Assembly (NCBI RefSeq): GCF_030247195.1
Contig: NC_080672.1
Coordinates: 394,089,037 to 394,153,036 of the forward strand
DNA from: Topomyia yanbarensis
Lineage: Eukaryota > Arthropoda > Insecta > Diptera > Culicidae
Direction of reading: 5' to 3'
DNA: 64,000 nt
A model generated the notes under the pieces. That model ran no database searches. It worked only from the letters and a program-made list of their open reading frames with translations, and was not told where the DNA came from. Position numbers and translations under genes: made by a program. This document shows positions 5,900 through 63,430 of the stretch, piece after piece. Position 1 is the first letter of the stretch; each line of letters starts with the position of its first letter.

Positions 5900-7020
5900 C
5901 GAAGTGAAGCCATAAGTCATTCGGGAAATATTGTTAAATTGTCAGTTGCAAGAAGTTGTTTTGTAGAGATCTTTTCAGCGTAAAACCGAAAAAAGAATCA
6001 TTTGCAACCTTTGCCTCTACTAGCCTATTATAGACAATAGGAACGAACCACTTCTCTCTACCAAAGCCGCCGAGATGATTTGCAGAAAATGCGCCGTATG
6101 TATTACACCGGTCGAGCACAGTATTGCGTGTGGTGGTTTCTGCTCAGACCGATACCATGCTGAATGTGTTGCGTTAAGTATCTCAGAAGTGACGAGTTGT
6201 AATAAGCATCGCAATATTCACTGGATGTGCACACCATGTACCGATATTTTGAGCGATGTTTGTCATATCCAAGCGTTTCGTGATAAGCGTGAACTGCTGT
6301 CCGACGCTGCTGCGATTATTCCTATTCGTGCCCCTTCTATTGCTTTTCATGCACAATCCCAGACGGAAGATTCAGCAGTGCTCGAAGAGGTTTGTAAATT
6401 AAAAAAGCAAATTGAAGATATTCAACAAACTGTAGCTGTAATTTCCCGCTCGCACACTGATCTACGCACACGAGAGGACTCTTTTTCCGTTCAATCATCT
6501 CCTTTATCTTCGACGAGACTGCTGCAAGGCACTGGAAATGGATCTAACTATGGCCACTCATCAATGTCAAGTCCTTCTTTATGTTGGTTATTCTTTACAA
6601 GAGTCAAAAATTCTACGAGCGAAACAGATATCTCCAATATGGTTGCTGCCGCACTTGGACCTACCGCAGTAGTAGTGAAAAAGTTAGTGCCAGATTGGAA
6701 GGAAGAAACTTTGATGCCTTTTATTTCGTTCAAAGTGGGAATAGACGCTAAACTAAAACAAATCGCACTACGCCCATCAACCTGGCCACGGGGAATTTGT
6801 TTTCGCGAATTTCACGATCAATATGGAGTGTGGAGTCCGAACGATGTACGCTAAAACAAATGTGATATGTAATTACCAATTTTGTAAACTATTCCGTAGA
6901 GTTAACCGTTATATATTGTTTGTTTTGTGCGCCTTTGTTAAATAATATTAAGTTTGAGTTCTATATTTTAAGTTGTAATCTGTATGCGCTTGTCGCAAAG
7001 ATGAAAATAAATAAATATTA
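5900..7020 (+). mobile_element. ORF1-only LINE (half-LINE)
   Basis: The unit consists of a leader, one intact PHD-finger ORF1 (6075-6854), about 165 bp of 3' UTR and a tail at about 7005-7018 of the form (AAAT)n, typical of LINE ends. The usual second gene with endonuclease and reverse transcriptase is absent, so the copy would depend on enzymes made elsewhere. The 5' border is not defined: I could not find target-site duplications, and about 5750-5940 is only a plausible range. The sequence returns to the surrounding TIR element before 8062. Confidence 0.45.
6075..6854 (+). CDS. Non-LTR retrotransposon ORF1 with PHD finger
   Basis: A 259-codon intact frame starts at the ATG after GCCGCCGAG and ends TAA. 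Residues 6-55 form a PHD-type zinc finger: C6-x2-C9, C19-x3-C23, H28-x2-C31 and C52-x2-C55. A short helical segment follows at about 110-125 (LEEVCKLKKQIEDIQQTVAV), likely a coiled coil, then a Ser-rich linker. The C-terminal domain (about 175-250) includes WLFFTRVKNSTSETDISNMV, VVVKKLVPDWKEE, PFISFKVGI and WPRGICFREF. This PHD plus FTR/FVSFKVG layout is what I know from ORF1 proteins of CR1-like mosquito LINEs, which bind element RNA. No reverse-transcriptase gene follows. An intact frame amid decayed repeats suggests a fairly young insertion. Confidence 0.8.
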   Translation: MICRKCAVCITPVEHSIACGGFCSDRYHAECVALSISEVTSCNKHRNIHWMCTPCTDILSDVCHIQAFRDKRELLSDAAAIIPIRAPSIAFHAQSQTEDSAVLEEVCKLKKQIEDIQQTVAVISRSHTDLRTREDSFSVQSSPLSSTRLLQGTGNGSNYGHSSMSSPSLCWLFFTRVKNSTSETDISNMVAAALGPTAVVVKKLVPDWKEETLMPFISFKVGIDAKLKQIALRPSTWPRGICFREFHDQYGVWSPNDVR

Positions 7021-8061
7021 ACTGGAATACATCAAGGTAGCGACAGTATATTCATACACGCTGGGCATAACGGTTATGCAGGTAGGTACTTGTCTCAGCT
7101 TGGAAAGCTTGTTTTAGCGCGGACGCAACTACCTGAACCAGTACACAAAAATCAGAAATTCAACTGACTTCATTTTGGTTTTACCTAGTTTTTCTTTAAA
7201 AATATTTCAATACAGGAATGATTTTGATTGACATTTTTTTCAATACATGTATACTGAAAGTTGAAAGTATTGTCGAAGTTTGCAAAATCATTCTATTTCG
7301 GATTTAGTCGATTATATAGTAAAATTTCAATTATTAACAAATGTAATATGTAATATGCAATACGATAATTATTTTTCATCTTTTGAGATTCCAAACTAGA
7401 TCTGGAATAAGTATGAAGTTTTTTTGTAGTGCTGGCTGACTAAATAGAAAAGAAATAAAAATTATTCCTTTCATCTAAAATTGAAATCATCAATCAATTA
7501 CCAACAATCCTTAAATAGCTTTGGTTATTTCGTCGCATTTAAGAGTGCAGTTTATAAAAAGATAACATTATGAGAAACATAACTCTATATTATATTTACG
7601 TGTGGATTACTGGCATACGGAGTATTTCAACAATTTAATTCCATACCTTCATCCGTCGGTCGGTGAAACAAAACGTTTGAAATATCGTATGTTGTATTTT
7701 ACGATGAAGCAGTTTAATTCAACAATGAGATTAGTTGAATTCCAATCGTTTGTGTCTTGGCTGAAAAGGTAGTGTAACGACATATGCAATTGTATTTGAA
7801 CTAAAACAAGCGTTACAAGCTGAGACAAGCTTTTCAAGCTTTAGCTCAGGTAGGCTTTTTAAGTTTTGTGCTAGGCTGAAACGTTCATGTCCAGACTGAA
7901 ACTGACAGCTTCAAACCAACAACGTTGGATTATTGTTTTCAACAAAAATTTAGTTCGCCCAAATATTAACTAGACGAAACCAAAAACTCAACTAATTTTT
8001 TAGTTGAAATTGTGATGAATCGGTTTTCCGTGTGGTTAAAAAAAGTGAAAATGACCAAAAA
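7021..8061. other. Interior of the 3.5-kb TIR element
   Basis: A+T-rich, with no recognisable gene. The segments near 7090-7120 (TTGTCTCAGCTTGGAAAGCT) and 7808-7840 (AAGCTGAGACAAGC) are partly complementary, giving an inner inverted repeat around the insertion. Confidence 0.4.
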
Positions 8062-8186
8062 GCAACATGGGACAATTATGCGTAGAACGGCAGTATACAT
8101 CTCATACTAGACCTTCTATTGAATATTTTGATATTGGTTATCTACTCTTTTAATAGTAAACTGTTCTTCACATGTATTTATCTACA

Positions 8187-8375
8187 CTCAGATTTTTTAC
8201 GCGGTTTTTCTGAGCGGTTTTTTACGCAGTTTTTCTGAGCGGTTTTTTCGCGGATTCCGCGTAAAAAACGCGTTAATTGAAAAATCCGCGTAAAAAACCG
8301 CGTTAATTCGAAAATCCGCGTTAATTCTGAAATCCGCGTAAAAAACCACCGTAATTCGTACATCCGCGTAAAAGA
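8187..8375. repeat. Minisatellite with CCGCGTAAAAAACCGCG units
   Basis: Degenerate tandem units of roughly 30 bp combine AAATCCGCGTAAAAAACC and GCGTTAATTCGA; the first part is present in inverted form (ACGCGGTTTTTCTGAGCGG). A 69-codon minus frame here is only the translation of the repeat. Confidence 0.7.
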
Positions 8376-8487
8376 AACTCTCAGCAAAAGACCTAAAAAA
8401 TTATTTCTGGAAGTTTTTTTTGCGCGAATTTCGTAAAAATATTTTAAATCTTTTTGAATGCAGATTGTCGGAAAGATGGTGAATACG

Positions 8488-8760
8488 GGTCTGGAAGACT
8501 CCTTACGGCCCGAGCCTCAGCAATATGGACAAACGGTCTTGACGAGTACGTGCCAGAAATTGATTTTTGACACCATTTTGAAATCCAAGATGACGACTTC
8601 CGGTTTAGTGGATTGGGTTATAGCGAATTTTGCAAAACCGAAAGTCGCCATCTTGGATTTCAAAATGGCGTCAAAAATTAATTTCTGGCACCTACTCGTC
8701 AAGACCGCTCCGAAAATACCGAAATTGTTAAGGTGCGGGCCATAAGGAGTCTTCCAGACC
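8488..8760. mobile_element. 273-bp fold-back element
   Basis: The outer arms GGTCTGGAAGACTCCTTACG (8488 on) and its near reverse complement ending at 8760 are matched by inner arms. GACGAGTACGTGCCAGAAAT and AAATCCAAGATG on the left pair with CATCTTGGATTTCAAAATGG and TTCTGGCACCTACTCGTC on the right. The result is a largely self-complementary, non-coding element. Related text with CCAAGATGGCG(A)TTTCCGGTT occurs at about 53570-53800. Confidence 0.7.
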
Positions 8761-8847
8761 GTCTCATCATCTTCCAGACCCGATATGCATTTTCAAATTC
8801 GCAAAGTGTTTACGGTTAAGTGTACGGCAACAAATTGGTATACTATG

Positions 8848-8922
8848 TTGCGTTTCGGCTTCGCCTCATCAGAAACCGACACTAACACATTGTCGGAATA
8901 GATTAGCGCCGGCTTGACGCAA
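8848..8922 (-). ncRNA. Hammerhead ribozyme, type III order, copy 1
   Basis: Minus-strand order: stem III strand TTGCG, whose last G starts the cleavage triplet GUC (8918-8916), with predicted cleavage after C8916. Stem I follows as a 14-bp hairpin (8915-8902 with 8886-8873, four G-U pairs) and a 15-nt loop. Then come CUGAUGA (8872-8866), stem II GGC-GAA-GCC (8865-8857), GAAA (8856-8853) and the stem III partner CGCAA (8852-8848). Every conserved core nucleotide of the hammerhead family is present. The small GAA-capped stem II and 5-bp stem III are minimal, so activity as a monomer may be weak. Self-cleavage is inferred, not shown. Confidence 0.8.
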
Positions 8923-9191
8923 ATCCCTTAAAACTAAAACACACTATGTGTTTCAATCAAACGACTGATCAAACGTGATGTCCCGTTCGAGCAGAAGTTC
9001 TGTTTATGCCGATGAGACACAAGTGAAGCCGAAACTTGTCTTGGCTTAGCAGGCCTATGCAAAAGCACTATGCTATATTTCACCCTAAGGAGGAAAATTT
9101 GGTAAAAACCAAAATTTCTCACTAGGGTGAAAATTTGTTGGTAAAAACCAGTCTTTGTACAGGAGGGCACAAATCCTTATTTCATACTATG

Positions 9192-9266
9192 TTGCGTTTC
9201 GGCTTCGCCTCATCAGAAACCGACACTAACACATTGTCGGAATAGATTAGCTCCGGCTTGACGCAA
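9192..9266 (-). ncRNA. Hammerhead ribozyme, type III order, copy 2
   Basis: This has the same structure as the copy 344 bp away: TTGCG with GUC (9262-9260), stem I hairpin, CUGAUGA (9216-9210), GGC-GAA-GCC, GAAA and CGCAA. The only change is C-to-A at the eighth base of stem I, which makes one mismatch. All core bases are kept. Confidence 0.78.
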
Positions 9267-9400
9267 ATCCCTTAAAACTAAAACACACTATGTGTTTCAA
9301 TCAAACGACTGATAGACTGGTTTTTACCAACAAATTTTCACCCTAGTGAGAAATTTTGGTTTTTACCAAATTTTCCTCCTTAGGGTGAAATATAGCATAG

Positions 9401-9537
9401 AACAAATTGGTAGTTTTCGAATCGTTTCGCTGTATATGTTGGTGCTCGTTTACGTTTACGTACACCAGCGTCGCCGACGTCCAAATAACCATCCAACAAA
9501 CGTCCATTATTGGACCCGTGTTGAACGATTTTCAAAC
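9401..9537. other. Short spacer
   Basis: Sequence between two hammerhead-bearing repeats. It contains an alternating GTTTACGTTTACGTACACC stretch, and nothing else is recognised. Confidence 0.3.
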
Positions 9538-9945
9538 TGTGCTATATTTCTCTTTACTGGAGAACAATTTTGGTAAAAACCATTAGTGAAAAAATTGTTT
9601 AAAACCATCTTTGCGCGTGAATAGCACAAAATCTATAGCTATATTAGATATGGAATTTGCTTTTCGACTTCGTCTCATCAGAATTCGTTACTAACGTAGT
9701 GGCAATAGGAATAAGCTAGCGCCAAATTAATGCCAGCTCAAAAAAAAACGCGGTCGCGGTTTGTGTTCCAGTGCAAACCCCTAGTCAACCGTGATGTCCC
9801 ACAAGAAAAGGGGCTCATTTTAAGCTGATAAGAACTAATAAATTTTCGAATTTATTTGGTTTGGCTTAACAAGCCAATGCATGATACACTATGCTATATT
9901 TCTTCTTGGTGGAGAGCAATTTTCGTAAAAAACCATTTACTTTTC
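9538..9945 (-). mobile_element. Retrozyme-like unit with degenerate hammerhead
   Basis: One monomer is bounded by TGCTATATTTC at about 9540 and again at about 9892 (~353 bp), followed by the start of another. The order matches 8840-9184: GGTAAAAACC segments, hammerhead on the minus strand, GTGATGTCCC, then TTGGCTTAACAAGCC. The hammerhead core keeps CUGAUGA (9681-9675), stem II GAC-GAA-GUC (9674-9666) and GAAA (9665-9662). The cleavage triplet has drifted (GGCATTAAT instead of GCGUC), so this copy is probably inactive. Stem II differs from the 8.8-kb copies yet still pairs. Confidence 0.6.
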
Positions 9946-9956
9946 AATTTTACAAT

Positions 9957-10317
9957 TTTTAATTGTTTTTTTTTGCTATTTTATTCTTCTTAATTTTTCA
10001 TTTTATCATGCGCTTCGTTTTTTTTTTTTTCATTTTATTCTCTTTATAGATGACATTTTATTAATGTTCATCACATTTTCAATCAATTTAAACTATTTTT
10101 TTTTATTTTGTTTATTTTATCCATTTTTTTGTTGATTAAAATTGAGACAAGAAATAAATATAACAAATAAAATAACCCTTTTAAAAGGAATTTTAAAAAA
10201 TATATTGAGTAACACGAATAAAATATCATTTATAAAGAGAATAAAATAAAAAAAAGACAAGATAAAAAATAAATAAAATTAATTTAAAAAATAATAAAAA
10301 TTAAAGAGTGAATAAAA
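9957..10317. repeat. T-rich then A-rich low-complexity tract
   Basis: T-rich on the plus strand up to about 10135, then A-rich AAATAA-type sequence. It continues on the far side of the inserted TIR element (13321 on), so the tract existed before that insertion. No gene. Confidence 0.7.
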
Positions 10318-18129: not shown

Positions 18130-18365
18130 TTAGGAGAAAATTGTTTGAAACCCCCTTTGCGTGTGAAGAACACAAAGCCTATAACTAACTGTGGAATTTG
18201 CGTATCGACTTCGTCTCATCAGAATCCAACACTAACGTAGTGACAGGAATAAGCTAGCGCCGGGGTGACGCTAGCCACAAAAAAAACGAACAAACTAATT
18301 GTGTTTCTAAGCAAACCCCTAGTCCTGCGTGATGTCCCGCAAGAAAAGGTGTTCATTAATTCTCA
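18130..18365 (-). mobile_element. Retrozyme-like partial unit with hammerhead
   Basis: A partial monomer of the family at 8840-9400, containing the hammerhead (18198-18271, minus) and the GCGTGATGTCCCGCAAGAAA block. In the hammerhead, stem III GCG/CGC, GUC (18269-18267), stem I with two mismatches, CUGAUGA (18222-18216) and stem II GAC-GAA-GUC are kept. GAAA has become GAUA, a change expected to abolish activity. Confidence 0.6.
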
Positions 18366-26934: not shown

Positions 26935-27222
26935 CAATAGACGTAGATTCGCGTGGAGGCATGAGATAGGAAACTTGCGACAAACTATGGTATACGACGA
27001 CCGTGATTCAGAACATTTTATTGTTTTCGAACAAAAAACTGAATTGTTCACTTTTTTGCAACATTTCAAAACGATTAGCTTATCGTTTTGAAATGTTGCA
27101 AAAAAGTGAACAATTCAGTTCTTTGTTCGAAAACAATAAAATTTTCTGAATCGCGGTCGTCATATAACATAGTTTGTCGCAAGTTTCCTATCTCATGCCT
27201 CCACGCGAGTCTACGTCTATTG
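26935..27222. repeat. 288-bp near-perfect palindrome
   Basis: The left arm 26935-27075 and right arm 27082-27222 are reverse complements with about six mismatches in 141 bases, separated by only six bases (TAGCTT). The outer ends are CAATAGACGTAGA and TCTACGTCTATTG. The mismatches include small changes such as TTCGCG versus CTCGCG. No TIR family seen elsewhere in the window matches it, and it lacks coding capacity; both overlapping frames are products of the symmetry. Confidence 0.9.
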
Positions 27223-33509: not shown

Positions 33510-33625
33510 GATTTAATGTCTATCTGGTGCCAGTTTGGTGTTAGTTTTGATTTATCGTCTATCTGGCAGCAAGTTGGTGCCAGTTACTGACGAATGGAAC
33601 ACGAAACATTCAAAACGCAACATGG
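33510..33625 (+). ncRNA. Hammerhead-like fold, family 2
   Basis: Plus strand: stem I TATCTGGCA (33560-33568) pairs with TGCCAGTTA with one mismatch. Then come CUGACGA (33587-33593), a GAA-capped stem II in ATGGAACAC (33594-33602), GAAA (33603-33606) and C. GUC lies just before stem I (33557-33559). A second GTC-TATCTGG lies 39 bp upstream, and its AATG could pair with CATT after GAAAC as stem III. A degenerate copy. Confidence 0.45.
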
Positions 33626-36792: not shown

Positions 36793-38590
36793 AATTGCAC
36801 ACTGATAAATAACAATAATAATGTTTATGTTTATTACCTTTACCAACAGGCCCCTTGGCCTGGTGGTTGCTTAAACTAATTTCATTTTAAAATTGCCAAC
36901 ATTTTCGCTTTTATCGCATTCCGCGTCCAGTTTGAAGTCAAAGGCCGTCGCCACACTGTTAAAAATTCGCTGGAGTCCGGTAACAGCGCTCTGGCAACCA
37001 TAGTTGGTTCTCCTGAACGGAACTCGCAGAAAAGAGTTATTACGTAGAGCTCGAACGCGGGCTTGAAGATTCAGACTTTGTAGGGTAATCCACTCTGGCA
37101 GAGAGTAAGTCCGAGACGAACAGGGCTCGAGAGCAGTCCCTCCGAATGCTGGGTGTATCGAGGTGTATTAGCTGGCAACGGTTTTCATAGCTCGGCAGCT
37201 GAAATCTGTTTCGCCATGGGAGATGCCGAAGGGCGAAGCGTATGAACCTGCGTTGGACAGCCTCGATTCTGTCAATCCCGTTCTGGTAGTACGGATTCCA
37301 AACAGCTGAACAATATTCTAACGTTGAGCGGACCAACGCGCAGTAAAGCGATTTAAGACAATATACGTCCCTGAAGTTTTTCGCTATTGGGAAGATGAAC
37401 CCAAGCTGTCGTGATGCCTTATCCACGATGTATGACGTATGTGGTTTGAATGTTAGTGCCGAATCCATGATGACTCCGAGATCTTTGATGTGAGAGTATC
37501 TTGGAATGCTCGAGCCGAAGAAATGGTAGTTAAACTGAGTCGGATGGCGTTTCCGCGTGAACGTAACAATTGAGCATTTACTCGGGTTTAAAACCATTCT
37601 GTTTAGATCACACCACGTGCTAAGGCTGTCCAGTTCCCTCTGAAGAAGCTCGGCATCGGTTTTATCCCGTATTTGTTGAAAAATTTTCATGTCGTCGGCG
37701 ACAGAAAGGCGGGGTGCTCGTAATGTGATATTGACGTCATTAAAGTAGAGGAGGAATATTACTGGACCGAGATGGCTTCCTTGTGGTATGCCGGATGTAG
37801 CGATGAATGGTGCAGATAGACGTCCTTAATGCTGATTTGGAGTTGCCTTTCATCGAGGTAGGAACGAAACCAGCGCAGAAGTTGTCCATGAATGCCGAGT
37901 TTGTCCAGCTTCGCTATTGCGATATCATGGTTGATTTTGTCGAAGGCCGCAGATAGATCCATGTAAATAGCATCGGTTTGCAATCCGTCAGCGAATCCAT
38001 CCATTACATATGTTGTAAACGAGAGCAGGTTTGTCGTTGTCGATCGTTTAGGCATAAAACCGTGTTGGTCATCTGCAATGTAGTGTTTGCAGTGAAAGAA
38101 AACAGGGTCTAAAATAACAAGCTAGAATAGTTTTGATACGGCACTTAAACACGAGATTCCCCGATAATTGTCAATGTTCGATTTATTTCCTTTTTTATGA
38201 ACTGGAAACATGTGTGCTGCATTCCAGCAGGAAGGGAATGTACCAGTAGTGAGGGATAGCTCGAAGACTCGTCGAAGTGGTTCAAGAAGCCCGCTGATGC
38301 ACTTTTTGACAAAAATCGAGGGAACACCATCTAGACCAGGGGTACAAGATGCTTTCAGTTTGGCATTTGCTGCAAGAATGGCATCATTATCGAAACAAAT
38401 TCGGTTGATAGTTCGTCCTAGAGAAGGAGTTAAATTGGCGGCGGCAGCGATTTGTTGTGGTGGCAGGCGCTCGTTGGAAAAAACGCTTGAAAATTTGTCG
38501 GAAAACAGTTGGCAAATTTCCTTAGTGTCGCACAGTGGCACCTGTTCATACAAAGTTGTGACAAAATTATAAAAATTGGTCTATGTGGCC
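36793..38590 (-). pseudogene. Non-LTR retrotransposon reverse transcriptase (broken)
   Basis: The minus strand encodes a LINE reverse transcriptase without its N-terminal endonuclease. In order: LKASCTPGLDGVPSIF, MFPVHKKGNKSNIDNYRGIS, then a TAG stop (about 38122), GFMPKRSTTTNL, motif A AIYMDLSAAFDKINHD, a frameshift near 37815, motif B SGIPQGSHLGPVIFLLYFND, and motif C VADD (Y/FADD expected). The thumb (LNPSKCSIVTFTRK) and HIKDLGVIMDSALTF follow, then a second frameshift near 37090 and the C-terminal FRRTNYG...FNSVATAFDF, with the stop at 36871-36873. The 3' UTR carries an ATTATTATTG-type tail near 36815. The clade is unresolved (CR1/Jockey-like). The gene is dead: one stop, two frameshifts, 5' truncation. 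Confidence 0.85.
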
Positions 38591-48648: not shown

Positions 48649-50153
48649 AGAAAAATTCCTTTTAAATTTTTATTTTTTAGTATTAAGCTACGCGTCTGAA
48701 CTTTTAAATTTTAATTTTGAAAATCAAAAAAAAACATTGGCGACCTTGAAACGTCATTGATTACATTAATGTTAAGACTGCATGGAACCGTCTTAAGTAA
48801 AGTTGTGGTCAGTTGGGTAATCTGTAACTAGATAATTGATATTTGTCAGTATCATAGTAACTTTCGCTATATTTTCCCGAGTCAGATTTTTTTTATTTCA
48901 AAAATTGTAGAATTTATGCAACGATTTGACAATTTTTTAAATTTTTGCGTCATTTTTTGAGAGACTATAAAAATGGAATAAAATAAAACAAATTTCATGA
49001 TCGCCAAGTTCTGTCGCTAAGTTAGTGTCGGATTCTGATGAGACGAAGTCGGAATGCTAACTTTATGACAAATTTAGTTAATCGACGCACAAATATGATG
49101 TTACCCAATTTTCTCTTTAATGGAGAAAAATTGGTTTCTACCAAACTTTTCACATTAGAGAGAAAAGTAGCATATAGGTAAAATATTTTGGAATTTATTT
49201 GCTAAAAAACGGCACAATTTCGGCCCTCGAGAGTAGGGGACCCCTTGAATTGTTATGCTGTTTGAAACAATAATATAATTTTCTGAGAGCATTCTTATAT
49301 CGTTATTTTTCTGTCGTCTGACTCACAGTCTTTAAGACTTTAGATTGATAAAACCTCGCTTGCTTGGCTTATCAACTATTTCTTTTAGAGATTATCAATT
49401 TTCATTATTTTCAAAAACCGTTTGATTCTCGCTCAATGGAGAAAGCATTACCAATTGCAACTAGAGCTTCAAACTCGGGAATTTATTTCCCAAGAGTACC
49501 GGGACTTTCAAATTTAAGTTTTCTAAACCAAGAATCTCATTTTTACATAACAGCTGAATCAGCAGCGTTCTGTATGTCATCTTATTTCGTTATTATAATT
49601 ATCACCATTTATATAATAGATCCAATAAAGAATACCGTTGTATAAACTGAGTGACAGCATACAGGATTGTTTCTATAATTTGTAGTTCACCGTTCCACAT
49701 TTACTGATAGGTTTACGAAAATGCATTATATTGTTCGAGAGCTCTAATTGCAATAGATGTGCGATAATTTTGACAATTTCTTCAGACATCTGTCAAAAAA
49801 TCCTGATTTAAAAAAAAAAAATGCAGTATAGGTCTGGTTTTCTGTCCTCAAACTAATAACGAGTTGAATTTTGTAGAATCGCACTTTACTAGTAATCTGT
49901 GCTCTTTGATAATCTCGGACGACATTATATCCACATCCATTAACCGCCTGCCAAACCGGATATTTGTAAAAAAAATGTATTTTTTTTGTTCTCTTTATAC
50001 GTTTGAGAATAAATAGTTAATAATCTGTGTCCCGTTATCTTACTGAGTACCCCTACAGCTACACTCTTTGTTTTATGGCTTTCTAACGAAAAATTGAATT
50101 GATTTTAGGTTCTAATTCTCACAAATATTTTTTTTTTATTTTAATTTTTTAAT
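48649..50153. other. Mostly unassigned; hammerhead-family remnant
   Basis: At 49010-49175 a partial family-1 hammerhead unit lies on the plus strand: TTAGTGTCGGATT, CUGAUGA (49035-49041), GAC-GAA-GUC (49042-49050), then GGAA in place of GAAA. CTTTAATGGAGAAAAATTGG and an AGTAGCATATAGG end follow. Its 5' stem I and stem III strands are missing. The rest is A+T-rich with no gene. Confidence 0.45.
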
Positions 50154-60467: not shown

Positions 60468-60870
60468 TTCAGAATCCAGAGGAAAGAACCCAGACTTTAG
60501 ATTCTATAGCCCAGAGTCCAGTGCCCCGAGGAGAGAGACCAGAATCCAGAGTCGCGAGTTCTCAATCCAAAATACTGAGGCGAGTCTAGAATTCAGAGTT
60601 CAGTGTCGAGAATGCAAAGTCCAGAGTCCACAACGCAGCGATCAGGACCCAGAGTTCCGAAGACAGAGCTCAGAGTTCAGAATCCAGAGTTCCTAGGGCA
60701 GAGCCCAGAGTCCAGAGCCCAGAGACCAGAAACTAGAGTCTAGAGTTTTTATCCCAAAATACTGAGCCCAGAGTCCTCACCATATAATCCAGAGCCCAAA
60801 GTCCAGAGCCCCTAACCCTAAATAGTGAGACCAGAGTTTAGAGTCCGGATTCCAGAGCTCAGAGTCCAGA
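60468..60870 (+). repeat. Heptamer minisatellite (CCAGAGT)n, left part
   Basis: Degenerate 7-base units such as CCAGAGT, CCAGAAT and TCAGAGT in tandem. The array is interrupted by a SINE (60871-61404) and continues to 62387. Because the period is 7, every frame reads as a 7-residue repeat rich in Ser, Pro, Glu, Gln and Arg; these frames are not genes. Confidence 0.85.
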
Positions 60871-61404
60871 TGACGGCGCCGGTGGTTGAGTGGTAAGCGG
60901 GACCGCCACTCATTCCAATTTGTCTGGGTTCAATTCCAGCCGAGGTCGTTGAGATTTTTCTGAGGTGAAAAAATCTGTGGTCACGTCTTCCTTCGGAAGG
61001 GAAGTAAAGCCGTTGGTCCCCGGTCTATGAGTTTGGTGGATCGATATCTAGTCCAGATAGTGGAGTCACCTCTCTGGCGTCGGTAAAGAAGAAGTGATTC
61101 AACTTCTATACTCTTACTAACAAAAATATCCTCCTCCTGTGATACTTGTGGAGTGCGCAGTAGTATATACGGCCTCTAGCAAAAGCAAGTATCGGACTAA
61201 CCACTCCTTCCCTTTCCTTCCGCGATCTACGTTCGGGCCTGGCCGGTGCCGGTATTGATCAATACTTTAGGATTACCAGGAGTTGCACATTGAAAGATGT
61301 TTCGCTACTCCCAAGCATAATTATCTACTGCTTCTCTGTGCAACTTCAGCTAGTCCAGATCAATAACGGAGGTGCAGCCAGGGGTGGTCGCACAAGCTCA
61401 AGCT
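60871..61404 (+). mobile_element. tRNA-derived SINE, 534 bp
   Basis: The RNA polymerase III promoter boxes are clear: A box TGGTTGAGTGG (60883-60893) and B box GGTTCAATTCC (60927-60937), 33 bp apart, as in a tRNA. A perfect 25-bp target duplication (60846-60870 and 61405-61429, CGGATTCCAGAGCTCAGAGT then CCAGA) flanks it, though the satellite target weakens that somewhat. The 3' half (GTGATACTTGTGGAGTGCGC, GTATTGATCAATACTTTAGG, AGTTGCACATTG) resembles the 3' part of the element at 34820-36357, suggesting mobilisation by the same LINE. No intact tRNA fold follows, so this is not a tRNA gene. Confidence 0.85.
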
Positions 61405-61429
61405 CGGATTCCAGAGCTCAGAGTCCAGA

Positions 61430-62387
61430 ATCCAGAGTTTAGATTCCATAGCCCAGCGACCAGAACCCAGAGTCCCGAGGAGAGCCCAGAGTCCGGAGTC
61501 TAGAATTCAGAGTTCCGAGTGCATAGTCCAGACCCCACAGTTCAGAGTCCCAAGTCCAGAATCAAGAGAACCCAGAGCCCATAGCTCAGAGACCACAGGC
61601 TACAGTCAAGTGTCCATAGCACAGAATCTTGAGGCGAGAGCTCAGAATCCAGAGTTCAAAATTCAGAGAACATAGTCGAGAATCCTGGGTCCAGAGTCAT
61701 CAACCCAAATTACTCCTCCAGAGCCCGAAATACTTAACCCAAAATACTCAGGCAAGAGCTCAGATTCCAGAGCGCATAGCCCAGAACCCAGAGGCCAGAA
61801 TCCAGAGTTCATAACACAGAATTTCGAGACGAGAGTCCCGAGTCCAGAACGCAGTGTGAAGAGTGCAGCATCCAGAGTTCAAAGTCCAGAATCTAGAGCT
61901 CAGAGTCCAGAGACGAGAATCATGAGACCAGAGTTCAGCGTCCAGAGCCCAGAGTTCTCAACCCAAAATGCTGATCCCAGTGTCCCGAGCTCAGTTCCAG
62001 AGTCCAGAGCACAGAGCCCACAGTCCAGATTCCGGAGACCCGAGTGCAGAGCCTAAAGTTCAGAGTATAGAGTTCAGATTCCAGAGTGAAGGATCAAGAC
62101 CCCAGATACCAGAGCCCATGGTTCTGAGTCCAGAGTGCGTAGTACAGAAATTCAAGGCCAGCGCCAATAGTCCATCATCCAGCGATGAGAGTGAAGAGTT
62201 CAGAATCCAAAGTCCATAGTCCAGAGACCAGAATCCAGAGTCCCGTCGAGAGAGCCAAAAATCCAGAGTCACGAGTGCAGATTTCAGAGTTCAGAGTGCA
62301 GACATCAGAGTCTAGAGTTAGGATTCTAGAGTCCAGAATCAAGACCCCAGAGACCATAGTCCAGAGTCCAGAGTTTTTGCATGTATC
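61430..62387 (+). repeat. Heptamer minisatellite (CCAGAGT)n, right part
   Basis: Continuation of the array beyond the SINE. It contains short higher-order blocks and ends at AGAGTCCAGAGTTTTTGCAT, where the long-TIR element resumes. Overlapping frames on both strands (for example 61968-62219, 62175-62393) are repeat translations. Confidence 0.85.
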
Positions 62388-62594: not shown

Positions 62595-62660
62595 TTTACT
62601 GTCTAACTGGTGCCAAGACGGTGCCAGTTACTGATGAGGAGAACCCGAAACGCAAAATCT
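62595..62660 (+). ncRNA. Hammerhead ribozyme-like, family 2, best core
   Basis: Plus strand: GUC (62601-62603), stem I TAACTGGTGCC (62604-62614), loop AAGAC, GGTGCCAGTTA (62620-62630), giving 11 continuous pairs with two G-U. Then CUGAUGA (62631-62637), stem II GG-AGAAC-CC within GGAGAACCC, GAAA (62647-62650) and C62651. All core bases are canonical. Stem III is poor (only about two pairs beside the core), so activity is doubtful without a partner strand. Confidence 0.6.
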
Positions 62661-63254: not shown

Positions 63255-63430
63255 TTCGTTATTTATGCAATTTCGACTTCGTCTCATCAGAATCCGGCAT
63301 TAACTTAGAGCCAGGGCTAAATCAGAACTACTTTTCTTGTGGGGCATCGTGTTTGACTAGCGGTTTGGTAAGGAACACAAATAGTATTACTGGTTCCAAT
63401 TTAGTATCGGATGCTGATGAGAAGAAGGGG
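63255..63430. mobile_element. Retrozyme-like remnant with hammerhead pieces
   Basis: On the minus strand CUGAUGA (63290-63284), stem II GAC-GAA-GUC (63283-63275) and GAAA (63274-63271) survive. Stem I and the cleavage triplet are not recognisable. A plus-strand TCGGATGCTGATGAGAAGAAG lies at about 63408-63428. The CTTGTGGGGCATCG block is inverted relative to its position in other units, so this is a rearranged copy. Confidence 0.45.

Follow-up and report, generated by a model that had tools for sequence, protein, structure and literature searches.

Penelope-like elements have been proposed as the helpers of animal retrozymes on the grounds, in the accessible text of the relevant papers, that the two co-occur, that both lie in tandem and that they share type I hammerheads (PMC7229834, PMC7761336). 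The protein of a Penelope-like element is described as cutting and extending both strands of its target while starting at two internal sites of its RNA, and the available part of that study records no top/bottom strand difference between the two start sites in vitro, unlike the asymmetry of the two retrozyme sites, S1 and S2, that we describe below (PMC11167929). For inserted Penelope-like elements, pLTRs in inverted orientation are reported together with duplications of 8-10 bp and, in some cases, a tail (PMC3846280, partial text), and type III hammerheads of dipterans are mentioned, with details 'in preparation', in the available portion of another study (PMC7936874).

The window analysed here is the whole stretch of 64,000 nucleotides (C3:394089037-394153036) that was examined, and relatives of its repeats were sought in a genome of 1,168,131,283 bases in 1,044 contigs. 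We propose that it holds copies of a non-coding retroelement, dispersed in the genome, whose type III hammerhead is predicted to be self-cleaving, and that this element is probably copied by a Penelope-like reverse transcriptase starting on both nicked target strands.

Hammerhead motifs in the 344-bp repeats

Two 130-bp direct repeats in the window (8840-8969 and 9184-9313) are 99% identical and lie 344 bp apart. On the minus strand both read in the order UUGCG-U-C, stem I, CUGAUGA, GGC-GAA-GCC, GAAA and CGCAA, with stem I closed and stem III open, which is the type III order:

8848-8922, minus strand: hammerhead copy 1, type III; core and stems intact; predicted cut between 8916 (C17) and 8915
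9192-9266, minus strand: hammerhead copy 2, type III; one stem I mismatch; predicted cut between 9260 and 9259

In the first copy the CUGANGA...GAAA core, A15.1-U16.1 and the NUH site are all intact and stem I runs to 14 contiguous pairs, whereas in the second it has 7 before the mismatch, so that the 14-bp stem I that an earlier note had read in both repeats holds for the first of them only. A strict hammerhead descriptor (at least 5 pairs in stem I, 3 in stem II and 4 in stem III) had no match in 100 dinucleotide shuffles of the window, while a looser version (4/2/3) had one match in each of 4 shuffles out of 100.

At its gathering cut-off Rfam called no hammerhead in the window, nor in 20 older loci of the subfamily fam2 defined below. 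The relaxed cut-off gave, in the window, Hammerhead_3 at 18.7 bits against a cut-off of 48.5 and in another register for stems I and III; the public covariance model, which the earlier note had named as a check, is thus at background. The note's folding check gave a divided answer, as the hammerhead is the centroid structure of 8848-8922 minus (z -2.18) but its minimum-energy fold is a different one. The z-scores were -0.67 for the 9192-9266 copy and 0.16 for a decayed third copy; folding of the opposite, plus strand of 8848-8922 was no worse than that of the minus strand (z -2.88). The arrangement of fast type III ribozymes, a short stem I whose loop touches stem II, was not seen. The Rfam score and the folding are not decisive by themselves, and the case therefore rests on pairing that has been kept through sequence change in the other copies of the genome.

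Stem pairing among genomic relatives

The pattern CTGATGANNNGAANNNGAAA, which leaves stem II free, has 10,526 matches in the genome against 4 for the reversed pattern, and the first 100 matches listed served as the sample for stem II. All three stem II pairs form in 63 of these, two in 27 and one in 10; when the 3' strands were swapped among copies (2,000 trials) the fully paired number averaged 35.6 and never exceeded 47. Among the 38 distinct stem II combinations 12 are fully paired, against 6.8 after swapping (12 was reached in 23 of the 2,000 trials), and the fully paired types include GGC/GCC, GAC/GTC, GGA/TCC, GAG/CTC and GAA/TTC.

From loci L002-L106 and the window we collected 137 distinct cores, which were sorted by eye into three subfamilies:

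fam1: subfamily of the window copy, stem II GGC/GCC
fam2: stem II GAC/GTC, with 2,335 exact cores in the genome
fam3: stem II GGA/TCC

The three differ in stems I, II and III on both strands together, stem III for instance reading TTGCG/CGCAA, TTAGTG/CACTAA or TTAGCG/CGCTAA across the subfamilies. Pairs were counted separately in an alignment of 12 fam1 and fam2 sequences (A2) and one of 6 fam3 sequences (A3), because MAFFT misaligned fam3 against fam1/2; in both, copies were picked as intact. Paired cells came to 90.5% in A2, against 26-38% with slid partners, and to 92.4% in A3, against 24-45%, a control that leans towards structure, given the relatedness of the sequences and their choice as intact copies. 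In A2, 298 of 500 shuffles equalled the number of pairs changed on both sides and 416 of 500 the number of pair types; for the further pair types of A3 the figure was 226 of 500.

In 22 non-redundant copies with at least 11 of 12 stem I pairs, position 16.1 holds U in 16 and position 17 holds C in 15, the remainder being decayed or mispositioned. When stem I partners were swapped, all 12 pairs formed with the own partner in 68 of the 137 cores, and swapped partners still often gave 10-11, so that this control separates own from swapped partners poorly. Own stem III strands were not better than swapped ones, a control that is uninformative because most copies share stem III, so that the claim of stem III pairing rests on the contrast between fam1/2 and fam3; the stem III of fam2 is weak. 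All three stem II pairs are present in 122 of the 137 cores, which is not evidence, since most loci were fetched by patterns that fix stem II.

Pairing kept across the subfamilies argues for selection on the hammerhead fold. That the 344-bp repeats encode a type III hammerhead, predicted to be self-cleaving, is supported by this covariation, and with it the hammerhead of the earlier note.

Three further observations concern these relatives. The variant CTGATGAGACGAAATCGAAA, in which the 3' strand of stem II has G changed to A, occurs in 6 of the first 100 CTGATGANNNGAANNNGAAA matches listed and may be a sublineage with a disrupted stem II. In fam2 loci such as L067 (1449-1560) the stretch UUAGU, part of loop I, could pair with the sequence just 3' of the hammerhead, which reads ACUAA in several fam2 copies; by eye, this is a possible pseudoknot. 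Exact core patterns found no relative in viral or prokaryote collections, one phage match (L001) being discarded as a chance likeness without a hammerhead.

Structure of the unit and copies in the window

The repeating unit is 344 bp long, tandem and non-coding, with a GC content of 41.6%. Numbered as a 344-nt circle from CATAGTATG (U1), it is laid out as follows:

U1-10: S1
about U60-114: hairpin
about U116-125: S2, within box A
then, in order: tRNA-like module, linker and hammerhead (cut predicted after U276)

In the window this unit forms a young insertion, copy B, which carries the two hammerheads listed above:

8829-8840, no strand: left target-site duplication, 12 bp, AACAAATTGGTA
8841-8847, minus strand: S1 3' end, CATAGTA outward; the first end site, read as a reverse-transcription start
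9012-9082, minus strand: tRNA-like module with box A TAGCATAGTGC and a box B-like GTTTCGGCTTC; Rfam tRNA 22.1 bits, cut-off 29
9079-9131, minus strand: long hairpin between the S1 and S2 sites
9314-9400, plus strand: inverted second cDNA piece, 87 bp exactly complementary to 9068-9154 and ending in S2
9387-9400, plus strand: S2 site, GAAATATAGCATAG, at the right end of the insertion
9401-9412, no strand: right target-site duplication, 12 bp, AACAAATTGGTA

The tRNA-like module, the inverted piece at 9314-9400, the 12-bp target duplication and the Penelope fingerprint discussed below were absent from the earlier note. Other copies and relatives in the window are older or partial:

9536-9940, minus strand: copy A, an older fam2 copy of one unit, ending at an S2-like site (9537-9550)
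9657-9737, minus strand: hammerhead of copy A, decayed, with stem II GAC/GTC as against GGC/GCC in 8848-8922
9830-9903, minus strand: tRNA-like module of copy A; Rfam tRNA 40.5 bits, cut-off 29
18130-18357, minus strand: fam2 copy; its hammerhead has the core at 18222 and GATA in place of GAAA
24658-24759, minus strand: fam3 hammerhead copy
33513-33612, plus strand: fam3 hammerhead copy
49017-49174, plus strand: partial fam2-like copy with the 3' part of the hammerhead, the hairpin and the start of the tRNA-like module
62600-62660, plus strand: hammerhead relative, core at 62631, with a different, self-complementary stem I (pairing by eye)
63271-63331, minus strand: fam2 remnant, core intact, stem I decayed

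Copy A may be flanked by a 7-bp duplication, TTGAAAA (9529-9535 and 9941-9947), a weak indication, as this 7-mer occurs three more times in 8000-10100.

The tRNA-like module lies about 90 nt upstream of the hammerhead and has a box A and a weaker box B. Under relaxed Rfam settings the copy A match has an E-value of 8e-7 in 1.3 kb and 4e-5 in 64 kb, and it is the only one above the cut-off. In gathering mode this 40.5-bit match was not reported for the window, since the fast filters miss it; in seven fam2 loci relaxed mode found no tRNA. ARAGORN likewise found none. By eye, the window, L003-type and L067 copies can each be folded into an anticodon-type stem with a loop of 7 nt. Against the box A and box B consensus, box A scored 10 of 11 (4 positions free) in three of the four sequences tried, the best stretch in L067 being elsewhere, and box B scored 8, 6, 9 and 9 of 11. 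RNA polymerase III may well transcribe the unit from this module, on weak indications. The linker between the tRNA-like part and the hammerhead has TTTT at U253 and U259, with longer T runs in fam2, and these could stop Pol III early. Folded as a circle, the window unit reaches -115.5 kcal/mol, whereas 60 mononucleotide shuffles gave -79.4 (sd 5.5); the palindromic hairpin accounts for part of this low energy.

Several neighbouring features of the window are recorded here in their own right. An inverted repeat at 8534-8707, with 73-nt arms that are 93% complementary, is nested in an outer pair (8488-8524/8724-8760) and forms a MITE-like foldback that adjoins a retrozyme copy. The strong hairpin at 27006-27151 matches the plant family MIR6140 (plus strand, 75.7 bits against a cut-off of 140) and, on both strands at 27047-27110, also MIR7696, likewise below its cut-off; a foldback repeat is likelier than a microRNA. 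Positions 60642-62374 hold a long degenerate array of the heptamer CAGAGTC/TCCAGAG, with 138 period-7 copies at 61410-62374. Finally, retrotransposon reverse transcriptase fragments and a cysteine-rich frame of 276 codons, which may be an ORF1, lie at 37040-38580 (minus) and 6024-6854 (plus), the nearest named relative of 37040-37825 being from Aedes albopictus (57%).

Copy number and insertion structure

A 40-nt core from the window has 1,519 exact copies in the genome (760 and 759 on the two strands) and its control none. Among the first 100 copies listed, there are 34 pairs of neighbours on the same strand of one cluster, of which 29 lie exactly 344 bp apart, and opposite-strand neighbours are divergent in 16 of 16 cases (12 of 12 in a second count). 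A single core match is found in 25 of 50 clusters, and sampled arrays range from 1 to about 10 units, the longest (L041) having about 10 in the same direction. The tandem 344-bp family that the earlier note had foreseen is therefore borne out. Between 96.5 and 99.7% identity to the window unit (median 99.4) was found for 53 full monomers from L002-L051, several of them from the same arrays, which indicates that the family moved recently.

For the insertion survey a flanking duplication of at least 8 bp was scored per cluster, with L052-L087 and L097-L106 left out. L002-L031 were the first 30 matches listed, 8 being dropped as overlapping duplicates, while L032-L051 and L082-L101 were chosen from the listed places in favour of clusters and varied stem II, so that the tandem and twin-insertion rates are not genome rates. 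Of 54 clusters, 39 have a duplication of at least 8 bp and 15 do not. The duplications measure 11 bp in 15 cases, 12 bp in 14, 9 bp in 3, 10, 13 and 14 bp in 2 each and 16 bp in 1, which places 29 of the 39 at 11-12 bp.

Double-ended insertions consist of two copies back to back, with their 3' ends outward, inside the duplication. Where both ends could be placed, 26 of 27 such insertions have S1 at one flank and S2 at the other, and none has S1/S1 or S2/S2; S1 ends fall at U6-11 and S2 ends at U120-129, in opposite directions and both outward. The one exception (L017) is double-ended with its other outward end at U322, neither S1 nor S2. In 13 of the 39 duplicated clusters only one end is at S1 or S2; the other end of the remaining one-end clusters is truncated or not placeable, and L034 and L040 have a very short inverted S2 piece. 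In the L002-L031 subset 12 of 23 clusters are S1/S2. Copy B of the window is of this common kind, with S1 at the left and S2 at the right of a 12-bp duplication. The inner junction varies among insertions, whose lengths run from 190 to 4,261 bp in tandem steps of whole units, and no A-tail was seen at the S1 and S2 ends inspected.

The target motif was derived from the 26 twin-ended insertions, with duplication edges set by longest match. The base before the left cut is C in 19 of 26 (P 6e-9, background 0.20) and the one after the right cut is G in 16 of 26 (P 2e-6, background 0.19); pooled over both cuts, the motif before the nick is A-R-R-C.

A resident Penelope-like element

The genome has at least 5 matches to GIY-YIG (PF01541), from 150 of 439 candidates scored. 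One locus (L106) has an open frame of 465 amino acids with RVT_1 (2.8e-13) and GIY-YIG (9.5e-6), and among the best 120 of 307 matches the closest named relatives of its protein are from Malaya genurostris (73%), Aedes albopictus (61%), Wyeomyia and Sabethes. These relatives are mosquitoes, which is consistent with the host proposed in the earlier note and is weak evidence for it.

A 24-nt pattern from the Penelope 3' end is found at 234 places in the genome, and among the 100 of these that were listed, all 22 close pairs are divergent. Four Penelope inserts were read. In each, two copies lie back to back, and the target duplications are 12, 11, 11 and 15 bp. In all four, one flank ends in ...CTTTGAAACATT and the opposite one is about 38 nt longer, ending in ...GCGTATATATTG, and their target motif is mixed. 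The retrozyme and the Penelope-like element therefore leave the same kind of scar: back-to-back copies with outward ends, one short and one long, and duplications of mostly 11-12 bp.

The sequence ACATAGT is present in the Penelope 3' region, upstream of its ends, and we considered whether S1 and S2 are copies of a Penelope start site by way of CATAGT; the idea found no support, the four inserts read ending elsewhere. A BLAST comparison of retrozyme and Penelope gave one likeness of 30 nt (fam2, 83-90%), inside the RT frame, which was set aside as chance. With this as the only likeness, and with S1 and S2 differing in sequence from the ends of the Penelope element, this Penelope element stands as one candidate for the helper. 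Separately, the Penelope 3' region at 1957-2075 of L106 has a sequence (TACCGGTA) that we read as a type I hammerhead whose stem III is palindromic; it may be the Aedes type of Perreault et al. 2011.

Discussion

These observations can be arranged as a cycle. Tandem copies would be transcribed, perhaps by RNA polymerase III from the tRNA-like module, to which the boxes point weakly. By analogy with known retrozymes, the hammerhead would then cut after GUC in successive units and a host ligase would close the 344-nt pieces into circles. A Penelope-type protein, the candidate enzyme, would bind this RNA and cut the target with the stagger of mostly 11-12 bp seen in the duplications, preferring the C found before each cut. 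One target strand would prime at S1, just past the hammerhead, consistent with the pairing of the ends, and the other would prime beyond the hairpin, at S2, which lies in box A about 115 nt from S1. Both free 3' ends could prime on the same or on paired retrozyme RNAs, and S1 and S2 could be kept close to each other by the hairpin that lies between them. Tandem units may arise as copying goes round the circle repeatedly, and joining of two cDNAs back to back could give the observed structure with its outward 3' ends.

By this comparison of sequences a helper role for Penelope is likely, and so, by analogy, is circular RNA as its template. A narrower reading, to which we give an even chance, is that the element is a hybrid of SINE and retrozyme, in which a tRNA-type promoter is joined to a type III hammerhead and the element's own circles are copied by Penelope machinery from both cut strands, at two fixed sites joined by the hairpin.

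The strongest alternative leaves the Penelope mechanism in place and supposes that the ribozyme no longer cuts, the template being a linear multimeric read-through RNA in place of a circle. The Anolis Penelope protein is reported, in the available part of the paper, to insert RNA in vitro without hammerhead cleavage (PMC11167929), and the Aedes hammerhead is described in the accessible text as inactive in vitro (PMC3088659). Since the stems keep pairing across the subfamilies, which argues for selection on the fold, we regard a linear template as unlikely.

A second alternative is a tRNA-derived SINE moved by a LINE, with twin priming giving the inverted 5' ends and the hammerhead incidental. 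The tRNA-like module with its box A and the target duplications fit this, and 5' inversions, which are known in LINEs, would fit the inverted pieces. Against it, both outer ends are fixed sites, one per flank, in 26 of 27 double-ended insertions, the duplications are narrow (11-12 bp in 29 of 39), the units are tandem, the S1 and S2 ends inspected showed no A-tail and the resident Penelope has the same scar. Taken together, these make a LINE-driven origin improbable.

It is less probable still that the family is an ordinary satellite, spread by unequal crossing-over and gene conversion, with a fossil hammerhead: the head-to-tail 344-bp arrays of up to about 10 units would suit one, but the copies are dispersed, 25 of 50 clusters hold one core match, and 39 of 54 are bounded by target duplications, 26 of those having one and the same pair of end sites. 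A DNA transposon or MITE, with the back-to-back copies as terminal inverted repeats, has outward inverted ends and near-fixed duplications in its favour and can be dismissed almost entirely, given that the two ends differ (S1 and S2), that the inner junction varies and that lengths of 190-4,261 bp change in whole-unit steps.

The shared scar is poorly explained by a LINE, a DNA transposon or satellite exchange; copying by a Penelope enzyme is the likely course. The hammerhead types differ, yet the scar is shared. It is physical evidence that the two elements use common machinery, and it supplies both start sites and a target motif for testing; this insertion fingerprint goes beyond the earlier argument from co-occurrence for Penelope helpers. 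Should the hybrid reading be true, it would show which enzyme spreads animal retrozymes, and how. In the open-access literature searched, judged by titles and the openings of abstracts, no report combines a type III hammerhead and a tRNA-like module in an animal retrozyme, or describes a tRNA-like module for any retrozyme. The type III hammerhead, described in the available literature as mostly a plant type, is here found in an abundant young animal element.

Comparison with known systems

Helenus TRIMs (Kojima 2024, PMC10886601) are likewise small non-autonomous retroelements with a tRNA-like sequence in the repeat. They differ in having, according to the accessible text, LTRs, PBS/PPT and 4-5 bp duplications, of which only the duplication length was compared with the present element; that text mentions no ribozyme, the word 'hammerhead' occurring in its reference list only. 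The type III hammerheads of HDV-like RNAs and dipterans share the long stem I, with insects among the hosts, whereas those of toad and termite have, unlike the present one, a 6-bp stem II with a loop-loop pseudoknot (PMC7936874, partial text). The hammerheads of Aedes aegypti (Perreault 2011, PMC3088659) are also from a mosquito and also lie in interspersed repeats; their closed palindromic loop III, which in the available description we read as type I, resembles the hammerhead of the resident Penelope and not the present ribozyme.

With plant LTR retrozymes (Cervera 2016, PMC4918200; PMC7761336), as far as the available text describes them, the element shares a type III hammerhead and direct repeats of about 350 bp, but where they have 4-bp duplications it has mostly 11-12 bp (those below 8 bp were not scored) and outward inverted double ends. 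Animal non-LTR retrozymes (Cervera and de la Pena 2020, PMC7229834) resemble it, in the accessible portion of the paper, in their non-coding tandem units (150-450 bp, GC below 50%) with a hammerhead in each, in duplications of more than 4 bp and in the presence of Penelope-like elements in the same genome. Their hammerhead is described there as type I, unlike the type III hammerhead and tRNA-like module of the present element, whose ends and double-ended structure are resolved here; the earlier note had drawn the same contrast of types, which agrees with the available literature. Penelope-like elements differ from the retrozyme in carrying a protein, in hammerhead type and in end sequences. 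They share with it, as the accessible text describes them (PMC3846280, PMC11167929), back-to-back insertion with outward ends and one tailed flank, and the Penelope of this genome also shares its 11-12 bp duplications (three of the four inserts read, the fourth having 15 bp).
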